Source: Salpingoeca rosetta (taxonomy: Eukaryota; Opisthokonta; Choanoflagellata; Craspedida; Salpingoecidae). From it: a stretch of DNA of 25,000 bases. Of this stretch, positions 1 to 24,299 are shown piece after piece. How positions within the stretch are numbered: the first letter of the stretch is position 1; each line of letters opens with the position of its first letter. The stretch spans positions 885,051 through 910,050 of the forward strand of contig NW_004754927.1 of assembly GCF_000188695.1 (NCBI RefSeq), given 5' to 3'. A program made the translations under genes and the position numbers. Below the pieces are notes generated by a model that saw only the letters and a program-made list of their open reading frames with translations, was not told the DNA's origin and did no database searches.

Positions 1-1204
1 GATGCAGCGCCTGATAGAGTCGCATGGCTCTGTGGAGAAGCTTCCCTCGACGATCCTCGGGTTGACACCGATGCTGGCCCACGGCATGGATTGGCGCGAT
101 TTCATTGGCCAGGTCACCGCCGCTGGCTTAGCACAGCAGGACGGCCGTCAGCTCCACTGGAACGCCACCGCCGTCAACCAGTGGTATGATGCCCGTCTCG
201 TCGACTCGGATTATGAAGACGACTTTGAAGAAGAAGAAGAACAAGACAGTGAAGAAGACCAAGAGGAAGAGGAGGCGGCGGCGGTGCTGGACGGCCAGGG
301 TCAGGGGCAGCAGCAGCAGCACCAGGGACAGCAAGCCCAAGCACAGCAAGAAACAGTCCCCGCGCCGCTGCCGCCATCGACAACATCCGGCACCAACGGC
401 GGCGGTGCAAGCCATGTCCAGAAGCTGTTCAACTTCTCGGATACGGCCAGCACGCAGATCGGGCCAGGCGAAGAGACCAGCCCTCGCACGGCCCCTCTCA
501 ACGCGGCGGCAGTCCAAGCAACATCGTCGTCGTCGACCAACCCATACGGCCCGCCTCCAGGCACCGTTCCTGCGGACAGTCGCCCTTCGCGGCCCTTTCC
601 GTTTCAGACGACACCACCTCCCACCCCGCAGTACGTTACTGGCCCGCCCACTCCAAACAGCCTGCGCGCCATGAAGTCTGGCGCCGTGGCCCCGCCTGCG
701 CGGCCCCCATCCCACGACGCACCGAGGACGCAAGCGCAACAACAGCTACAGCAGCAGCAGCAGCAGCAAGCTTCCGCAGTTTTGCCAACTGCAGACGATG
801 AGGAAGTGGTTGCTGCAATCAAGCAACATCTTGTGGAAGTTGGAGGCGAGGCCGTCGCCTGTTCCCTGCCCATCCATCTGCACCACGTTGTGCCACACGC
901 GAGTGACACGATCAAGCGCCACGGCAGGTTCCGCAACTTTGTCGATGCATTCCACCACAAGGGCATCGCGTTTGTCGAAAACTCGAGTGGTGGGAACGTG
1001 CGGCTGACACATGGCCTCGCTCACCGGTCGCTGTCCCAGAAGAGGACGAAAGCCGGCCAGCCGCCTGCAGCCGAACAAGGCCAGCAGCAGAGTTTTCAAC
1101 AACAAGTTCAAGAGCAATTCAAGCAAGGACAACAACAACAGCAACAACAGCCGCCTCCTCAGCAGCCACCACGGCAGGAGCAGGCAACACAGCCAAAGCC
1201 ACAG

Positions 1205-1242
<38 letters not shown>

Positions 1243-2223
1243 ACAACAGCACCAGCAACAACAGCACCAGCAACAACAACACCAGCTACAACAGCACCAG
1301 CAACAACAGCACCAGCAGCAGGTAGCGATGGACCCGCGTCTGGCACAGCGCGTGCCTCCGAGCGGTGCGCCTTCTGTGGAAGAGGTTGCTCGCGCCATCA
1401 GGAAGTACCTGCAGGCTGCTGGCGGTGCGGCCTGTGCCAGCGCCGTTCCCCTCCATCTGCAGCACGAGATGCCATCGGCGATTGACACCATCGGCGCCTT
1501 TGGGCGCTTCCGCGCGTTTGTTGACATGTGCGACAGTAAGGGCCTGGGATTTGAGTTCATCCACGACAACATGAATGGTCGCGTGCAGCTCACCAGCCGT
1601 TCCAACGCAACAGCACCAGCAGCACCACCAAAACCAACACCAGCACCGAAACCAAAACCAGCACCAACAGCAGCCCCAACTGCACCCACAGCAACAGCGC
1701 CACCGCGGCGCCACTCCATCAACACCCCGTCAACGAGTGATGTTGCTCGCGTCATCAGGCACTACCTGCGGGACAAAGGCGGCTCTGTCATTGCCAGCTC
1801 CATCCCAATCTATCTGAGGGACGCGATGCCTGACGCTGACACAACCATGAAGAAATACGGCAGGTTTCGCAGCTTCGTTGAGGAGTGTGCTCAGAGAGAC
1901 CTGGGGTTTAAGTATGTCCCCGACAACGCGAGTGGCCTTGTCTGCCTGACCGAGCGTGAGCATGATTCGCGTTCGCAGCCCCACTCCAGCATCACCCCCC
2001 CGTCAGCGAGTGAAGTTGCTCGCGTCATCCGCCGTTTCCTGCACGGCCAACATGGCTCCATCATTGCCAGCTCCATCCCACCGTACCTCAAGCACGCAAT
2101 GCCTGGGGCTGAGGCAACCATCAAGAAATACGGCAAGTTCCGCAGCTTCGTTGAAGAGTGTGCGAAAAGAAGGTTGGGGTTTGAGTACGTCCCCGACAAC
2201 GCGAGTGGGTTTGTGCGCCTGAC

Positions 2224-2258
<35 letters not shown>

Positions 2259-3364
2259 GTGGCAACGCGAGCGTGCGTACTGCCAACACTGCAGCCATTC
2301 CTGCATCAGCAACGGCGGTGCACCATCCGTTGGCTGCACGTGCCCCGACGACTGCTGCTAACACAACCAGCAGCAACGCAGCGCAGCCAGCAGGCGTGGC
2401 GCCCGCTCCACCGGCTCCTCCTGCTGCCCTGCAGGCGTCGTCAGCCCACGCACATGTCCAACACCACCAGCACCAGCAGCAGCAGCAAGAACAGCAGCAA
2501 GAACAGCAGCAGCAGCAGCACGAACAGCAGCAGCAGCAAGAGCAGCAGCAACCTTCTTCTTCTTCGGCCCCATCAACCGCGGGTGCCACGAGTGCGACTG
2601 CTACTGCTCCCACTGAGGCCAGTGCAACGAGCCAGGGCGCGCGCTTTGATGTTGATGCTGCTGCGTTTGCCGATCACGTGGCAACGCGCTTGCCACTCTC
2701 GACGCGGCTCGTAGAGTACGTGAACCGCCACGCTTCCGAGGTGGCAGGCGTCGACCTGCATGTTGACGGCCGGGCCATTGTCTGGCAGCGCGGCCCGCAT
2801 GACGAGAAGCCGCGGCCCGAGGTTTTTGTGGACGCCCACACGTGCCACGAGGTCGTCGAGTGGCCCGAGACGAACCACCTCGGCTGCCTCGCCATCGACA
2901 ACGCGTTGCACAAGGTGTGCGTGCTGCGTGACAGCATGGACCACCTGTCGTGCGTCACCATTCGCCTCGTGCACCCGATGCTGCCACTGCCGCACTTCCC
3001 CTTCCTTGCCAAGAAGGCGGCCACTGGTGGCTTCTTTGCCTTCCGCGGCACCGACCGCGCCGTGTGCAATGCCTTCCTTCGCACCGCCGCCAAGCACCTG
3101 TGCATGTCCAACCACGTCGTTGTGCTTGATCCGTACGGCGAGATTGCCGGCCAGGGCCAGCGCTGCGAGGCCCTCATTGGCGGCGCTGTGCGCATGCCGC
3201 TGTTCCCCGATGACGACAGTGCGCGCGCTGTGGAGCGAGCCACCGTCGTGCTGGACGCAGACATTGTCATCTTGTGTATCACGCCAGCGCACAAGCACGC
3301 CCACTTGGCAAACATTGCCGAGCAGCTCCCTGTCTCCCTCATCACCGCCATGATCACAAAGTGA
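1..3364 (+). CDS. PolyQ protein with four winged-helix-like repeats and a degenerate Ycf45/SpoIIIAA-like C-terminal domain (5' partial)
   Basis: One long open exon, open at the 5' window edge (first Met at base 2 may be internal), ends in TGA at 3362-3364; 1120 residues are visible. Four homologous blocks of about 70 residues lie at roughly residues 268-337, 457-531, 578-650 and 669-742. Each has an amphipathic helix, a GG/GS turn, 'ASSIP.YL', 'P.A..TIKKYGRFR.FV' and a C-terminal 'V.LT' strand, which looks like a small winged-helix (LOTUS/Egalitarian-type) fold; this fold call is inference. They are joined by Gln-, Pro- and Ser-rich linkers with long CAG/CAA runs. Residues about 889-1120 resemble the Ycf45/SpoIIIAA AAA family: an 'LH+V..+RD' segment near 964, 'EIAGQG' at 1047-1052, then 'IGGAVRMP' and a short tail. 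The P-loop position lacks GxGKT and the Walker B position (DADIVILC) lacks the acidic pair, so ATPase activity is unlikely. Possible role: RNA or protein scaffold; no function is assigned. Confidence 0.75.
794..2225 (+). repeat. Four-copy coding repeat of a winged-helix-like domain
   Basis: Copies at about 803-1015, 1370-1594, 1733-1950 and 2006-2227 encode homologous modules. Copies 3 and 4 are the most alike, even at the DNA level (shared 'cgtcatc', 'attgccagctccatccca', 'cgcagcttcgttga' stretches), which points to a recent tandem duplication. Copies 1 and 2 are more diverged and separated by long glutamine tracts. The N-terminal visible segment (residues 1-60) may be a fifth, more distant helical copy, but I am not sure. 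Confidence 0.75.
1098..1326 (+). repeat. CAG/CAA-rich coding tract (polyglutamine linker)
   Basis: Mixed CAG, CAA and CAC codons encode a Q/H/P-rich linker between domain copies 1 and 2 of the first gene. The codon mixing means selection or drift keeps glutamine rather than a pure DNA repeat. Shorter tracts of the same kind sit at about 740-775, 2227-2260 (serine AGC run) and 2476-2551. The antisense frames of these tracts give false Leu- or Cys-rich open frames. Confidence 0.85.
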
Positions 3365-3717: not shown

Positions 3718-3804
<87 letters not shown>

Positions 3805-3810: not shown

Positions 3811-6066
3811 CTACGCTGTTTGCGGTGAGGTGTGGCTGGTGCCGTTGTCTTCCTGCTCGTCAAAGAGTTTGGCGATGAATGTGTTGCTGAGGACACCACG
3901 TGGGTCGAGCCGTCGCCTGAAGTGATTGAACCGGTCAACGGGGAAGCGCTCTCGCATGCGTGCTCTCAACTCACGCAGCTCAGCGGGATCTGTTGGGACT
4001 TCAAGCTTGGCCCAGTGTACATACGCGTCATACTTGGCATCAAGGTTGTCGGCGACCAATTGCCTGTACTTGAAGAACGCTTGCGTAATGGCCTCGCGCT
4101 CGCGCGTGTCTGCCGTACACAAGTACATGATGATGCCCGCCCATGCGTGGATGCCGTCCTCGTGTGCCGGTACGCGGCCTGGCCCAGGGCCACCGACACT
4201 CATGGCGGAGGTGGAGGTGCGCGTCCACCGCTGCTCGATAGGCGCCGGTGCAGGCACGTGGTTGTCCTCAATCAGGGCGAGCAGGTCTGCCATGAACGCC
4301 ATATCGGCCATGTCGGGCGCTTGCAACGTGCCTGCAGGGAAGCACACCTCGTTCACCCACTGCTGCCCTCCGCACTCAAATCCAAGCACCTGTGAGTGTG
4401 CACAATGTGAGTGAGTGCGCTCAATGTGGGTGAGTGCGCTCAATGTGAGTGAGTGAGTGTGCGCAATGTGTGCGAGGGTGTGTGCGCAATGTGTGCGAGG
4501 GTGTGGTACGCTCACCTCGTCGCTGTAGCCGACGCTGGTGATGCCCTGGTTTCGGCGCCAGAACTCGGCTTCGGCAGCGTTGCACTTCTTCACGTGCTCA
4601 ACATCTGCACGTGGCAGAGGTGTTGGATGGGTGTGTGTGTGTGTGTGAGGTTAGCAGGCATGCAAACGGAAGACCACACATACACACAGAGGCAGACAGA
4701 CACAGACACAGAAGCAGACAGAGAGACAGAGAGACAGAGAGACAGAGAGACAGAGGCAGACACACACACACAGACACACAGACACACACGCACGCACACA
4801 CACAAACACACAAACACACACAGACACACAGACACACAGACACACACGCACGCACACACACACACAGACACACACACGCACGCACACACGCACACACGCA
4901 CGCACACACACACACACACAGACACACAGACACACACACACACACACACACACAGACACAGACACACAGTCGGTACCTCGAGGGTTGGCGGCCAGGATGG
5001 CGTCGCGAAGGTCCGCAAAGTGCATCGTGCGCATGCGGTCTTGGGAGATGCTCGGGTTGACCTGTTGCAGCAGCGATCGCAGTGGCGCCAGCGCATATGC
5101 CTCGTGCTCGCTCGCCTGCTTCTCCTCGGCCTCTGCTTCGTCCTGTGCCCGCGCGGCATGTGTGGTGTTGTTGCACTCCACAACAACCACGGCGTCCTCG
5201 TACGGGATCCACATGTATCGGACGTGCTTGTTGCGCCGCAGCCGCTCCTTGTGGCCGCGGCGGGCCTCCTCGCGCGTGATGACGCTAGTTCGCTCCGTCA
5301 GGAGGTGGTGATCAACGCACTGCAGCGTGACGGTGCCCATGATGCCCAGCGCACCGAGTCCAACGCGTGCGAGGTCAAACAGCTCCGGGTGTGACTCGCG
5401 TGTGACGCTCAAGGTGCCCTGGGCGGGCGTGATGAGGCTGAAGCCAACAACCTGGTCGTCCGCGGGCGGGATGGCTGCGCCGGTGCCGTGCGCGCCGGCT
5501 TGCACGAAGCCGCCAATCTGCTGCTCTCGGATGGACGCGTAGTTCTGCAGCGTGAGCCCATATGGCCGGAGCTTCTCCACGACGTCTGCCACGCGTGCGC
5601 CGGCCTCCACGCACACCTGCTTCGAGTCCGGGTCCACCCACAGCACGCGGTTGCAGTTGACCATGCTCAGCATGCCCTCGTCACTGAATGCCAGGCCGTT
5701 TGGCGAGATGGCCGAGCCCACAACGCGCAGCCGCTGGCCCGTCGCGTGTGCTCTCGCAAGCGCGTCCTCCACCTCACCCAGGCTGTTCGGCTCCACGAAC
5801 ACGCGAGGCCACGCCGTGTGCGTCCCAGACCAGTTGACCACCTCGTGACTGTCGTGGTCATGATTGCCGTCGTCATCATCCCTGCCTGCTTCTGCGTGCG
5901 CCAGGCGACATCCACGCATCCAGCCGTGTGTGATGGTGGTGGTGCCACCTCTTCCCTCTTCCCCTTTGCTGGCTGGTTCCCATGCGCTCCATGGGTGCAG
6001 CAGCGCTGCTCCCGATGCTGCTCCCGCCACAGCTGCCCACCGCATGAACACCCTCCCCACCACCAT
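3811..6066 (-). CDS. GLDH: L-galactono-1,4-lactone dehydrogenase (GLDH), 3 exons
   Basis: Exons on the minus strand: 6066-4977, 4604-4516, 4389-3811 (stop TAG at 3813-3811); joins are in phase and give 585 residues. The enzyme oxidises L-galactono-1,4-lactone to ascorbate, in plants on the mitochondrial inner membrane with cytochrome c as acceptor. The N-terminus is basic and Ala-rich (residues 1-25), fitting a mitochondrial presequence plus membrane segment. 'VNWSGT' at about 77-82 opens the FAD domain. 'VGSAISPNG' (116-124) has no histidine at the covalent-flavin position of gulonolactone oxidase, so FAD should be non-covalent, as in plant GLDH. '[15 protein letters not shown]' (182-196) is the FAD signature. 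'[10 protein letters not shown]' (439-448) carries the Glu445/Arg447 pair matching the catalytic Glu-Arg of plant GLDH. The C-terminal 'HWAKLEVP' and 'RFPVDRFN' segments are also family features. Resemblance is to plant-type GLDH rather than animal gulonolactone oxidase. Confidence 0.93.
4390..4515 (-). repeat. GLDH intron 2, made of degenerate GTGAGTGCGCTCAATGT-like repeats
   Basis: Donor GTGAGC follows ...GACGAG and acceptor ...CACAG precedes GTGCTTGG (minus strand). Between them, about five copies of a 16-22 base unit, including two near-identical 'tgcgcaatgtgtgcgagggtg' blocks, fill the intron (plus-strand 4391-4505). Confidence 0.8.
4605..4976 (-). repeat. GLDH intron 1, filled with UG/UGUC tracts and a short CA tract
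   Basis: Donor GTACCG after ...CCTCGAG and acceptor ...GTGCAG before ATGTTGAG; the split codon reads GAT. On the plus strand, 4680-4970 is CA, GACA and GAGACAGA repeats (sense strand UG-rich, starting about 6 bases from the donor) and 4630-4648 is (TG)n, which is sense CA near the acceptor. The purine-rich GAGACA block lies at 4718-4758. Confidence 0.85.
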
Positions 6067-6264
6067 TGTCCTCTGACTTTAGTCTTCTTGGCTTCTTGCG
6101 TTGTTGTCTTGCTTCTTTTGGCTGTAACATGCACTTCTTTGCTTGGTGTCCGTGGTGGTCATTTCATGCCGCCTGTGGATGTGTGCTGTGTGTGCATGTG
6201 ATGCGTGGATGTGTGCTGTGTGTGCATGTGATGCGTGGATGTGTGTGGTGTGTGTCGAGCTACA
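6067..6264. other. Spacer between two minus-strand genes, with a 30-base tandem repeat
   Basis: 198 bases between the GLDH start codon (6066) and the GalNAc-transferase stop (6265). A 30-base unit beginning 'ggatgtgtgctgtgtgtgca' occurs at 6178-6207 and 6208-6237, followed by a partial third copy. The GLDH promoter must lie here or inside the upstream gene's last exon; no TATA box is evident. Confidence 0.7.
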
Positions 6265-11771
<5,507 letters not shown>

Positions 11772-15889: not shown

Positions 15890-18800
15890 GGTGTCAACGG
15901 TTGTTGTTCCCGCTTGCCTGTGCTGTGTGACTTGAGCGAGTGCTTTTCATGACGTATCCTTCTGTGTGCAAATGTGTACGCATGTATGAATCCATGGTGT
16001 TGCCTCTACCACCTCACGTACTGGCCGTGTCTGCTTCGCTTCCAGCTGCAAGAAGAGTCTGATGCGCGGTACGAGGCGCTGCTGAAGCGAAAGGACGCCG
16101 AGATTGAGTCCATCCGCCAGTCTCACAAGGTCTCACAGGCTGGGCTGCTGGATTTTACGCATGCACATAGACGTGTTCACACTTGCACACACTGCAGTGG
16201 CTGTCTGAACTGACACATCACCGCTTACCCTCACCCCCCTCCTCCTCCAAATCGCCCTAACTTGCGCTGCTTGTTCACAGGTGGAGATTGCAGACTTGGA
16301 GGCGTCGCATTCGCTCGTGCTGCAAACACGCGAGCAGCAGCACCAGGCAGACCTTGCGCAGGTGCGGGAGCTGAGCAAGCAGCAGGTTGCCTCTGCGTTG
16401 GAGAACAAGGAGAATGCCGAGGGCATTCGCGTGCTGCTGTCCCAGTTGAAGAACACAACCGAGGGTGTGGACACCATTCAGCAACGCCTTCGTGCTGCCA
16501 TGAGCGAGCAGCTTGGAGAGCGCGAGGCACGCGTTGTCGAGCGAGAAAAGGTGCGATGTGCGTGTTGTATGTGTGGTGTGGTAGATGGGTGTCGTGTGGT
16601 GTGATGCGTTGAATGTACGTGGCTGAGGATGCGGGGTCAGTGTCAGTGTTTGTGTGCATGTGTTTTCAGGTGTAAACCTAGTATTTGGTCTGAGATCGTT
16701 GGGACGTTTGCACTCTGAGTTGTGTTGCGCAGTTTCGTCACCGAGTTGCTTCCATCTCCATGCTGTTATTTGTTGGCAGGCGCTTGATGAAGCCATGGAG
16801 AGCTTGAAGAAGCAACAACTCTCCCTGGACGAGGTGCGTTCACACCCTGCGAATCTGTTGTATGAGACACCAGCTTCTTGTGCCATGGGGTGGCAGTGGA
16901 GAGGTGTTTGTATCCTGCCGTACCTGCGTGTGTATTTGTGTTGTGTGTGTGTGTGTGTGTGCGTGTTGTGTGTGTGTGTGTGTGTGTGCTCTCGCCCGCG
17001 CAGGGGCCCGCGTGTCGTGTGTGCGCGTTCACACGTGTTCACTGTGTGTGTTTGTGCATATGTGTAGGAGCGACGCGACATGCAGCGCGTGTATGCAAAG
17101 CTGGAGGTGGAACTGCGAGAGCAGCGAACGCAGCTGGAGCAGCGGCAGTGGCGCCTGACGCAAGATGAGGCGCGTGTGCAGGCGAACCAGCAAGCCATTG
17201 ACGACCAGCGCGCTGTCGCCATGCAGCAGTCGCAGGAGGAGCGTGCACAGATCCAAAGCCTGGTAGGGTGCTCGGCTTTATGTGTGTGTGTGTGTTGGGG
17301 GGGGGCGGTGTTGTGAGATGCATTGCGGCTGATTGCACTTGTTTGTATATTGCTGCTGCGGCAGTGAATGAAAAGAGGCAATGCGCTGCCTTTTCACCGA
17401 CTCCCAACATGCACGCACTCACCCGACTGCCACCAACCACCACCACAACACAACACAACACAACACAACACAACACAACACAACACAACACAACACAACA
17501 CAACACAACACAACACAAACATACATACACACTCACATGGCGTGTGTGTCTGTACATGGCAGCGGGAGGCGCTGTCGCGGGAGAGGCGGGAAATGCTGCG
17601 AGAACTCAACGACCAGCGGCGCGATCTGGCAGAGGAGCGCGCGTCTGTGAAACAGGCAAAGCGGGAAGCAGAGCTGAGAGACAGGCGCAAGACGGATGAG
17701 ATGATGGAGACGACGGCGCAGGTGGAGAAGGCCATGGCGAGCGTGCACCAGGAGCAGCTGCAGATTGAACAGCGCTCGTCTGCACTCAAGCGGCAGGAGC
17801 GAGAGCTGGAGAAGGTGAAGCGACGGCTGAAACTCGAACGCGAGCGATTGGCAGAGGAGCGACAGCAGTTGATGGAGACGGCAACAATGGTGGAGGAAAA
17901 GTCCGCAGCTGCGCTTGCATTGCATCAGCGTGCGCAAGAGGACCTGGCAGCAGCACGAGAGGCGCACGAGGTGTGTGTGTGCTTTTGTGTGCATTTGTGT
18001 GCATGTGCGTGTGTGTTTGTGTGTGTTTGTGTGTGTTTGTGTGCGTGCGTGTGTGTTCGTGTGCGTGTGTGTTCGTGTGTGTGTGTGTTGGGTGCATGTG
18101 CTGGAAAGCTTTCTCCGTGTGCCTCACGTTTGATGCAACGCTCCGTTGATTGTTGCTTTGCAGCATGTGGAGGCGTTGAACCTGGCCATCGCAAACGAAA
18201 AGGCGGAATTGCTCGCTCTTCAGTCTGAACTCAAGGTGACGATGAGGACTCACCGTCGTCCATATTCTGGATCGTTCATCCACCACCATTGTTGTTGTGT
18301 GCTCACATTCACTCACGAACATTGACAACTACGCACACACACACGCACTACAACATACTTACACGCACAACATGCATGCATACACACATACATGCACACC
18401 CTGGCGCTGGTGAACGTTAGGCGGCCGAGACGCGGCTGTATGAAACTCGTGCACGCATGGAGCTGTCATCGTCCAACTCTGGCCCACACACGCAGCAACA
18501 ACAGCAACAAAGAAAGCCGTCAACGCAACAAGCGTACACCACGGGTCACGATTCTGGGGCACACAATAGCGGCGGCGACACAGCGTTTGCGCAGACAATG
18601 CAGCAGCTCGAAGCCCTGAAGGTACACGTACATATACTCACACACTCACACACTCACATACATTCACGGACACACGTACTCGCTCACGGGTGCGCTTGCA
18701 CTTGCACTTCTTGTGGGTCTTTACGCAGGCATGCACTCATCTTTGCATGCTTGGGCGTTGTTGTGTCTGCTTGTCGACCTTTCAGGCGCAATATGAGGAG

Positions 18801-19458: not shown

Positions 19459-24299
<4,841 letters not shown>

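Follow-up and report, generated by a model that had tools for sequence, protein, structure and literature searches.

How a large nuclear protein built of winged-helix repeats and glutamine-rich linkers could come to end in a domain resembling an ATPase stripped of its catalytic motifs is the question raised by the left end of the stretch of DNA analyzed here, 25,000 nucleotides of contig NW_004754927.1 (positions 885,051 to 910,050, forward strand), hereafter the window. According to our analysis, the C-terminal domain very probably descends from the Ycf45 group of ATPases and is predicted from its sequence to be a pseudo-ATPase. Frame 2 of the plus strand is open from window base 2 to the stop codon at 3362-3364; it is not closed at the left edge, and the sequence past the window partly reads N. 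The 1120 residues discussed here are the portion inside the window, with residue numbers counted from its left edge. The protein comprises four repeats of about 78 residues, Gln-rich and other low-complexity linkers and, at its C terminus, a domain of some 238 residues (883-1120). For the last two codon blocks, which span this domain, G+C content at third codon positions (GC3) is 0.87 and 0.80, a coding signature. The strings quoted in the original prediction for this locus are each present once, in the order given there, in frame 2 of the plus strand. The reading frame and the parts of the domain are the following.

2..3364, plus strand: open reading frame (ORF), 1120 residues within the window plus stop codon; left edge open, start codon outside the window
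2648..3361, plus strand: C-terminal Ycf45-related putative pseudo-ATPase domain, residues 883-1120 (N-domain ~883-1008, ATPase-like core ~1009-1120)
2906..2932, plus strand: LHKVCVLRD, counterpart of the family TLHR segment ahead of the ATPase core, with L969 and H970 retained
3047..3070, plus strand: GTDRAVCN, replacing Walker A G-x-P-G-x-G-K-T; the first Gly alone retained
3116..3157, plus strand: VVVLDPYGEIAGQG, counterpart of VxVxDTSNEIxGDG; D1043, E1047, I1048, G1050 and G1052 kept
3176..3196, plus strand: IGGAVRM, counterpart of Ycf45 IGRARRM
3260..3280, plus strand: DIVILCI, replacing Walker B VIVIDEI; Asp and Glu replaced by C1092 and I1093
3314..3349, plus strand: IAEQLPVSLITA, counterpart of TIAERGVQLIATA; family Thr and His (His box) replaced by A1116 and I1118, after which the protein ends

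With a consensus query for the ATPase core of the family, 80 Ycf45 loci were collected, spanning cyanobacteria, Chloroflexi, Armatimonadota, Acidobacteriota and others, and 36 of them entered a first profile. With its core version the window domain reaches 14.8 bits (single-comparison E 6.2e-7), 5.7 bits being the highest score in 5,000 shuffles; a profile of the full ORFs gives 9.1 bits. A second set was obtained by tblastn with one Ycf45 protein, which returned 23 plasmid records, 22 of them from Deinococcota, at 33-48% identity; 11 of the 23 matches form a Deinococcota profile that shares no sequence with the first set, and loci L129-L137 are in no profile. With this second profile the domain reaches 22.1 bits (E 3.4e-9), the match running from profile column 22 to 200 and thus including the N-domain, and the whole 1120-residue protein reaches 17.0 bits (E 1.2e-7), while shuffled domains reach at best 10.3 bits in 5,000 and 9.0 bits in 30,000 trials, none of the 30,000 attaining 17. 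A combined Deinococcota and Ycf45 profile likewise gives 22.1 bits. Leave-one-out Deinococcota profiles range from 15.4 to 26.7 bits, single Deinococcota sequences score the domain from -3.0 to 14.3 bits, the N and C halves score separately at 12.7 and 9.8 bits, and the reversed domain yields no score against the Deinococcota profile. When 843 stop-to-stop ORFs from the window and loci L007-L128 were ranked, 118 family members at 25 bits or more were followed by the window protein and then by a P-loop ORF at 16.1 bits. With hhalign, the match to 16 relatives (11 from Deinococcota and 5 Ycf45) has 93.4% probability and an E value of 2.5e-7 over 168 columns. A rough correction for 24,736 possible families leaves E values of ~8e-5 for the domain and ~3e-3 for the whole protein.

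In the profile alignment, LHKVCVLRD is paired with TLHRISAIRN and EIAGQG with EIAGDG, and GTDRAVCN occupies the P-loop position; FAFRGTDRAVC lies at 3035-3067 (plus strand, frame 2) and DADIVILC at 3254-3277 on the same strand. In a set of 23 relatives, 42 columns reach a conservation of 87% or more, and the window domain retains 16 of them. By our assignment, nine of the 42 belong to Walker A (G, P, G, K, T), Walker B (D, E) or the His box (T, H). Of these nine, the first Walker A Gly is the only one retained, the others reading D, V, C, N; C, I; and A, I, as compared with 15 retained among the 33 non-catalytic conserved columns. This suggests, as a trend only (hypergeometric p ~0.06, post hoc), that catalytic columns were lost preferentially; the loss of the motifs themselves is independent of that statistic. 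Within the DTSNEIxGDG segment, D, E, I, G and G are kept and S, N and D are lost. Among the relatives, Walker A, Walker B and AHG patterns are present in all 80 Ycf45 ORFs, the DE pattern is matched by all 80 but by only 8 of the 11 Deinococcota sequences, and each of the 16 rows of the joint alignment has K, D, E and H. Given descent from Ycf45, it is highly improbable that the domain hydrolyzes ATP. The core of the original prediction, namely that a domain related to Ycf45, its Walker A and Walker B motifs erased, follows winged-helix repeats, is thus supported by the profiles, the alignment and the repeat model described below.

The window domain shares with Ycf45 the N-domain and the ATPase core in the same register, together with the TLHR-like and IGxAxRM segments and, in part, the D..xEIAGxG segment. 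It differs in having Walker A cut to its first Gly and in lacking Walker B and the His box; the window protein also lacks PF25516 and R3H, ends at the sensor strand and carries the domain after winged-helix repeats, whereas complete Nostoc Ycf45 (one protein scanned) consists of the ATPase core with PF25516 at residues 414-492 and R3H at 520-577. Since R3H is C-terminal in Nostoc and absent from the window protein, the "N-terminal R3H-like part" originally announced is a mislabel of the family N-domain. SpoIIIAA (PF19568) is a related ATPase family whose Pfam model matches Ycf45, but neither this model nor a profile of 15 SpoIIIAA sequences (from 30 loci, the other 15 being removed by a motif filter) matches the window domain, so that of the proposed "Ycf45/SpoIIIAA" membership the Ycf45 side alone was matched. 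The Deinococcota plasmid ATPases (e.g., WP_244348217.1 of Thermus thermophilus), which gave the best-scoring profile and took part in the hhalign match, differ in having the P-loop Lys and the Walker B DE intact and in being bacterial proteins annotated at ~310-386 residues. The Ycf45 relatives belong with PilT, FlaI and DotB, whose PDB chains the family profile matches over long stretches among the best 60 of 142 matches; in the same 60, midasin outscores them on the P-loop alone.

Upstream of the domain, the following repeats and linkers were delineated.

791..1021, plus strand: LOTUS/Egalitarian-like winged-helix repeat 1, residues 264-340, fold assigned by resemblance to repeat 4
1202..1321, plus strand: glutamine-rich linker, residues 401-440
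1370..1603, plus strand: predicted winged-helix repeat 2, residues 457-534, by repeat comparison and profile
1727..1960, plus strand: predicted winged-helix repeat 3, residues 576-653, by repeat comparison and profile
2000..2233, plus strand: predicted winged-helix repeat 4, residues 667-744, isoelectric point (pI) 10.0; the modeled repeat, predicted local distance difference test (pLDDT) 85
2459..2551, plus strand: second glutamine-rich linker, residues 820-850

The winged-helix fold of the repeats is shown by the model only, and the other repeats are 36-68% identical to repeat 4. Four LOTUS domains head the list of structural neighbors of the modeled repeat, and RNA-bound Egalitarian-BicD entries take three of the four places after them; on this basis, we regard the repeats as likely to be LOTUS/Egalitarian-like. 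None of the four was matched by the LOTUS/OST-HTH model PF12872, nor was the whole protein, and none by the Egalitarian winged-helix model PF23713; the LOTUS and Egalitarian models also returned nothing from the own genome (54.4 Mb, 49 contigs). A search of that genome with repeats 3 and 4 led to three places, all within the same gene. Residues 1-64 (window 2-193) look folded by eye, ahead of the first acidic linker; a fifth repeat at this place was not reported by the repeat profile. A spliced exon continuing the protein past 3361 was considered and set aside: by eye, and by eye only, the three downstream frames resemble repeat sequence.

Judged by the model, the repeats share winged-helix topology with LOTUS/OST-HTH proteins (Oskar, TDRD5, TDRD7, Tejas, Limkain b1), which are their best structural neighbors, and differ from them in escaping the Pfam OST-HTH model; the consulted part of PMC2848206, which describes OST-HTH/LOTUS architectures, choanoflagellates included, mentions no ATPase-derived partner domain. 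Egalitarian of Drosophila, likewise a structural neighbor, has the same layout, an enzyme-derived domain coming after several LOTUS-like domains that are joined by flexible linkers; its enzyme-derived domain, however, is a 3'-5' exonuclease homologue instead of an ATPase, and no sequence similarity was detected. According to PMC13186709, the putative catalytic residues of the exonuclease-homology domain are dispensable, and the LOTUS-like and exonuclease-homology domains jointly enclose bent RNA stem loops in a pocket.

We propose that the reading frame in the window specifies the C-terminal portion of a large nuclear protein in which at least four LOTUS/Egalitarian-like winged-helix modules are strung on flexible Gln/Ser/Ala/Pro-rich linkers and in which the terminal domain would be a descendant of a Ycf45-type (PilT/VirB11-like) ATPase that has lost ATP binding and hydrolysis. 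The winged-helix array would bind structured RNA or a ribonucleoprotein partner, while the dead ATPase domain, by analogy with Egalitarian, would act as a fixed platform that docks partners or associates with itself, and not as a motor. The LOTUS-like array would thereby stand in for R3H, which complete Ycf45 joins to its ATPase. The domain has a pI of 6.2 and is therefore a poor candidate RNA binder; repeat 4, with its pI of 10.0, is the best candidate for an RNA-binding surface. We consider the explanation as a whole, a multi-LOTUS-like protein ending in a dead Ycf45-type ATPase scaffold, to be moderately probable, and the RNA-binding scaffold role, which is drawn by analogy, is advanced tentatively, at slightly short of an even chance.

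Several results weigh against descent from Ycf45 and would fit a different domain, Rossmann-like or of another alpha/beta type, whose likeness to Ycf45 would be due to chance or to generic beta-alpha-beta patterning. No curated model fires: a Pfam scan of the protein and the domain gave nothing relevant, the top hit being F420_oxidored, a weak Rossmann pattern of 12.2 bits at domain residues 192-227, and the NCBIfam scan of both gave no relevant match either. The Ycf45 profile is weak when taken alone, with an hhalign probability of 51% and two P-loop ORFs outscoring the whole window protein. Residues 1043-1065 carry much of the Ycf45-profile score, and masking them lowers the Deinococcota-profile score to 10.5 bits. 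The SpoIIIAA-only profile gives -2.4 bits, and the joint Ycf45 and SpoIIIAA profile gives 6.6 bits, under the two best shuffles (best 8.8). In a semi-global alignment with averaged BLOSUM62 scores, z is 1.47, and the domain is equaled or beaten by 160 of 2,000 shuffles and by 356 of 863 fragments of real ORFs (some from family members); the test has little sensitivity, for among the matches listed ten SpoIIIAA ORFs score 28.8-39.5, as unrelated ORFs do. A single-sequence AlphaFold model of the domain has a pLDDT of 40 and no significant fold match; near the P-loop position the low-confidence model runs strand 128-133, helix 137-151, strand 157-160, helix 191-201 and strand 206-211, and although a P-loop core would have this order, at this pLDDT it is no evidence. 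Against a chance likeness, profiles made from Ycf45 loci and from Deinococcota plasmids, with different members, place the same residues in the same register. Moreover, the second, more divergent set raises the score, both halves match independently, no shuffle in 30,000 attains 17 bits, and the window protein, which has no P-loop, still surpasses the P-loop proteins among the 843 ORFs (17.0 versus 16.1 bits). We deem an unrelated domain very improbable.

Accepting descent from Ycf45, the domain might still bind nucleotide or RNA in a noncanonical way, as a nucleoside triphosphate or RNA sensor, for which the retained D1043, E1047, EIAGxG glycines and first Walker A Gly could speak; the replacement of Walker A Gly-Lys-Thr, of Walker B Asp-Glu and of the His-box residues, together with a pI that disfavors RNA binding, makes this unlikely. 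The gene could alternatively be in decay, a fusion that was inactivated and no longer has a role, as its catalytic motifs are gone and database searches found no relatives to show constraint: with a protein database of uncertain eukaryote coverage, none of 1,360 candidates for the 238-residue domain and none of 2,082 for the domain as a region of a long protein passed at E <= 10, none of 1,202 for repeats 3 and 4 as such a region passed at E <= 1, tblastn of the domain against plasmids found none, and viral contigs gave no match for repeats or domain. Decay appears very unlikely in view of a frame open over more than 3.3 kb, the GC3 of the domain and the tendency, as a trend, to keep non-catalytic over catalytic columns. 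No active Ycf45 paralogue was seen in the own genome, where two weak matches were presumably midasin (P-loop) and a RhoGDI-like protein; the Thermus query missed even the window domain there, so this absence shows little. More weight attaches to the idea that the winged-helix repeats are protein-interaction or DNA-binding modules and not RNA binders, as eLOTUS binds Vasa. With LOTUS domains heading the structural neighbors and RNA-bound Egalitarian-BicD entries behind them, we see this as a real but lesser possibility, and the multi-LOTUS-like protein with a dead Ycf45-type end is retained as the preferred explanation.

According to Table 1 of PMC3087521, Phytophthora ramorum and Naegleria gruberi have YCF45, counted there with the genes of cyanobacterial ancestry, so a nuclear Ycf45 in plastid-lacking protists is not in itself new; the same table gives no YCF45 for the choanoflagellate Monosiga brevicollis. 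No description of a Ycf45 devoid of catalysis, or of a fusion between LOTUS and Ycf45, was found in the open-licence papers searched.

The Deinococcota plasmid regions (L138-L148) carry the ATPases in compact form, and 5 of the 11 have an annotated lytic transglycosylase (L138, L139, L140) or VirD4-type coupling protein (L142, L146) nearby; these ATPases are possibly the VirB11 counterpart of plasmid conjugation systems. Five unannotated gut records, "Bacteriophage sp." by title (MT836401.1, MT835785.1, MT835629.1, MT839853.1 and MT835961.1; hits H24-H28), contain stretches 23-36% identical to the Thermus Ycf45-like ATPase. Within the window, the converging neighbor (3814-6078, minus strand) shows FAD_binding_4 and D-arabinono-1,4-lactone oxidase (ALO) matches in two ORFs, and because the two jointly cover the ALO model, it is probably an ALO/GULO-type sugar-lactone oxidase with an intron, placed by eye, that is rich in CA repeats. 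Long CA/GT microsatellites are abundant by eye across the window (e.g., 3720-3802, 4760-4970). A glycosyltransferase exon (Glyco_transf_7C, 25.1 bits, cut-off 23) lies at 7911-8360 and an Alg9-like mannosyltransferase exon (Glyco_transf_22, 34.3 bits) at 23088-23696, both on the minus strand. An ORF at 17368-18225 on the plus strand has a sub-threshold match (25.2 bits, cut-off 45) to FBF1, a ciliary protein family, a weak hint at a ciliated, holozoan-like host.

The scenario that we would draw, and judge evenly balanced, is that a Ycf45-type ATPase of bacterial or plastid descent was taken up into the nuclear genome of a eukaryote that is non-photosynthetic and possibly holozoan, was stripped of R3H, PF25516 and its catalytic motifs, and came to form the scaffold end of an RNA-binding protein with several LOTUS domains; both this class of pseudo-ATPase and this LOTUS architecture would be undescribed. 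In animals, LOTUS-like domains serve in germ granule organization and mRNA localization. If the scenario is true, the protein would be a P-loop-less member of the secretion/R3H ATPase lineage reused non-catalytically beside LOTUS-like domains; the parallel with Egalitarian would then suggest that replacement of catalysis by a scaffold recurs in such proteins, for which the finding supplies a concrete, testable protein.
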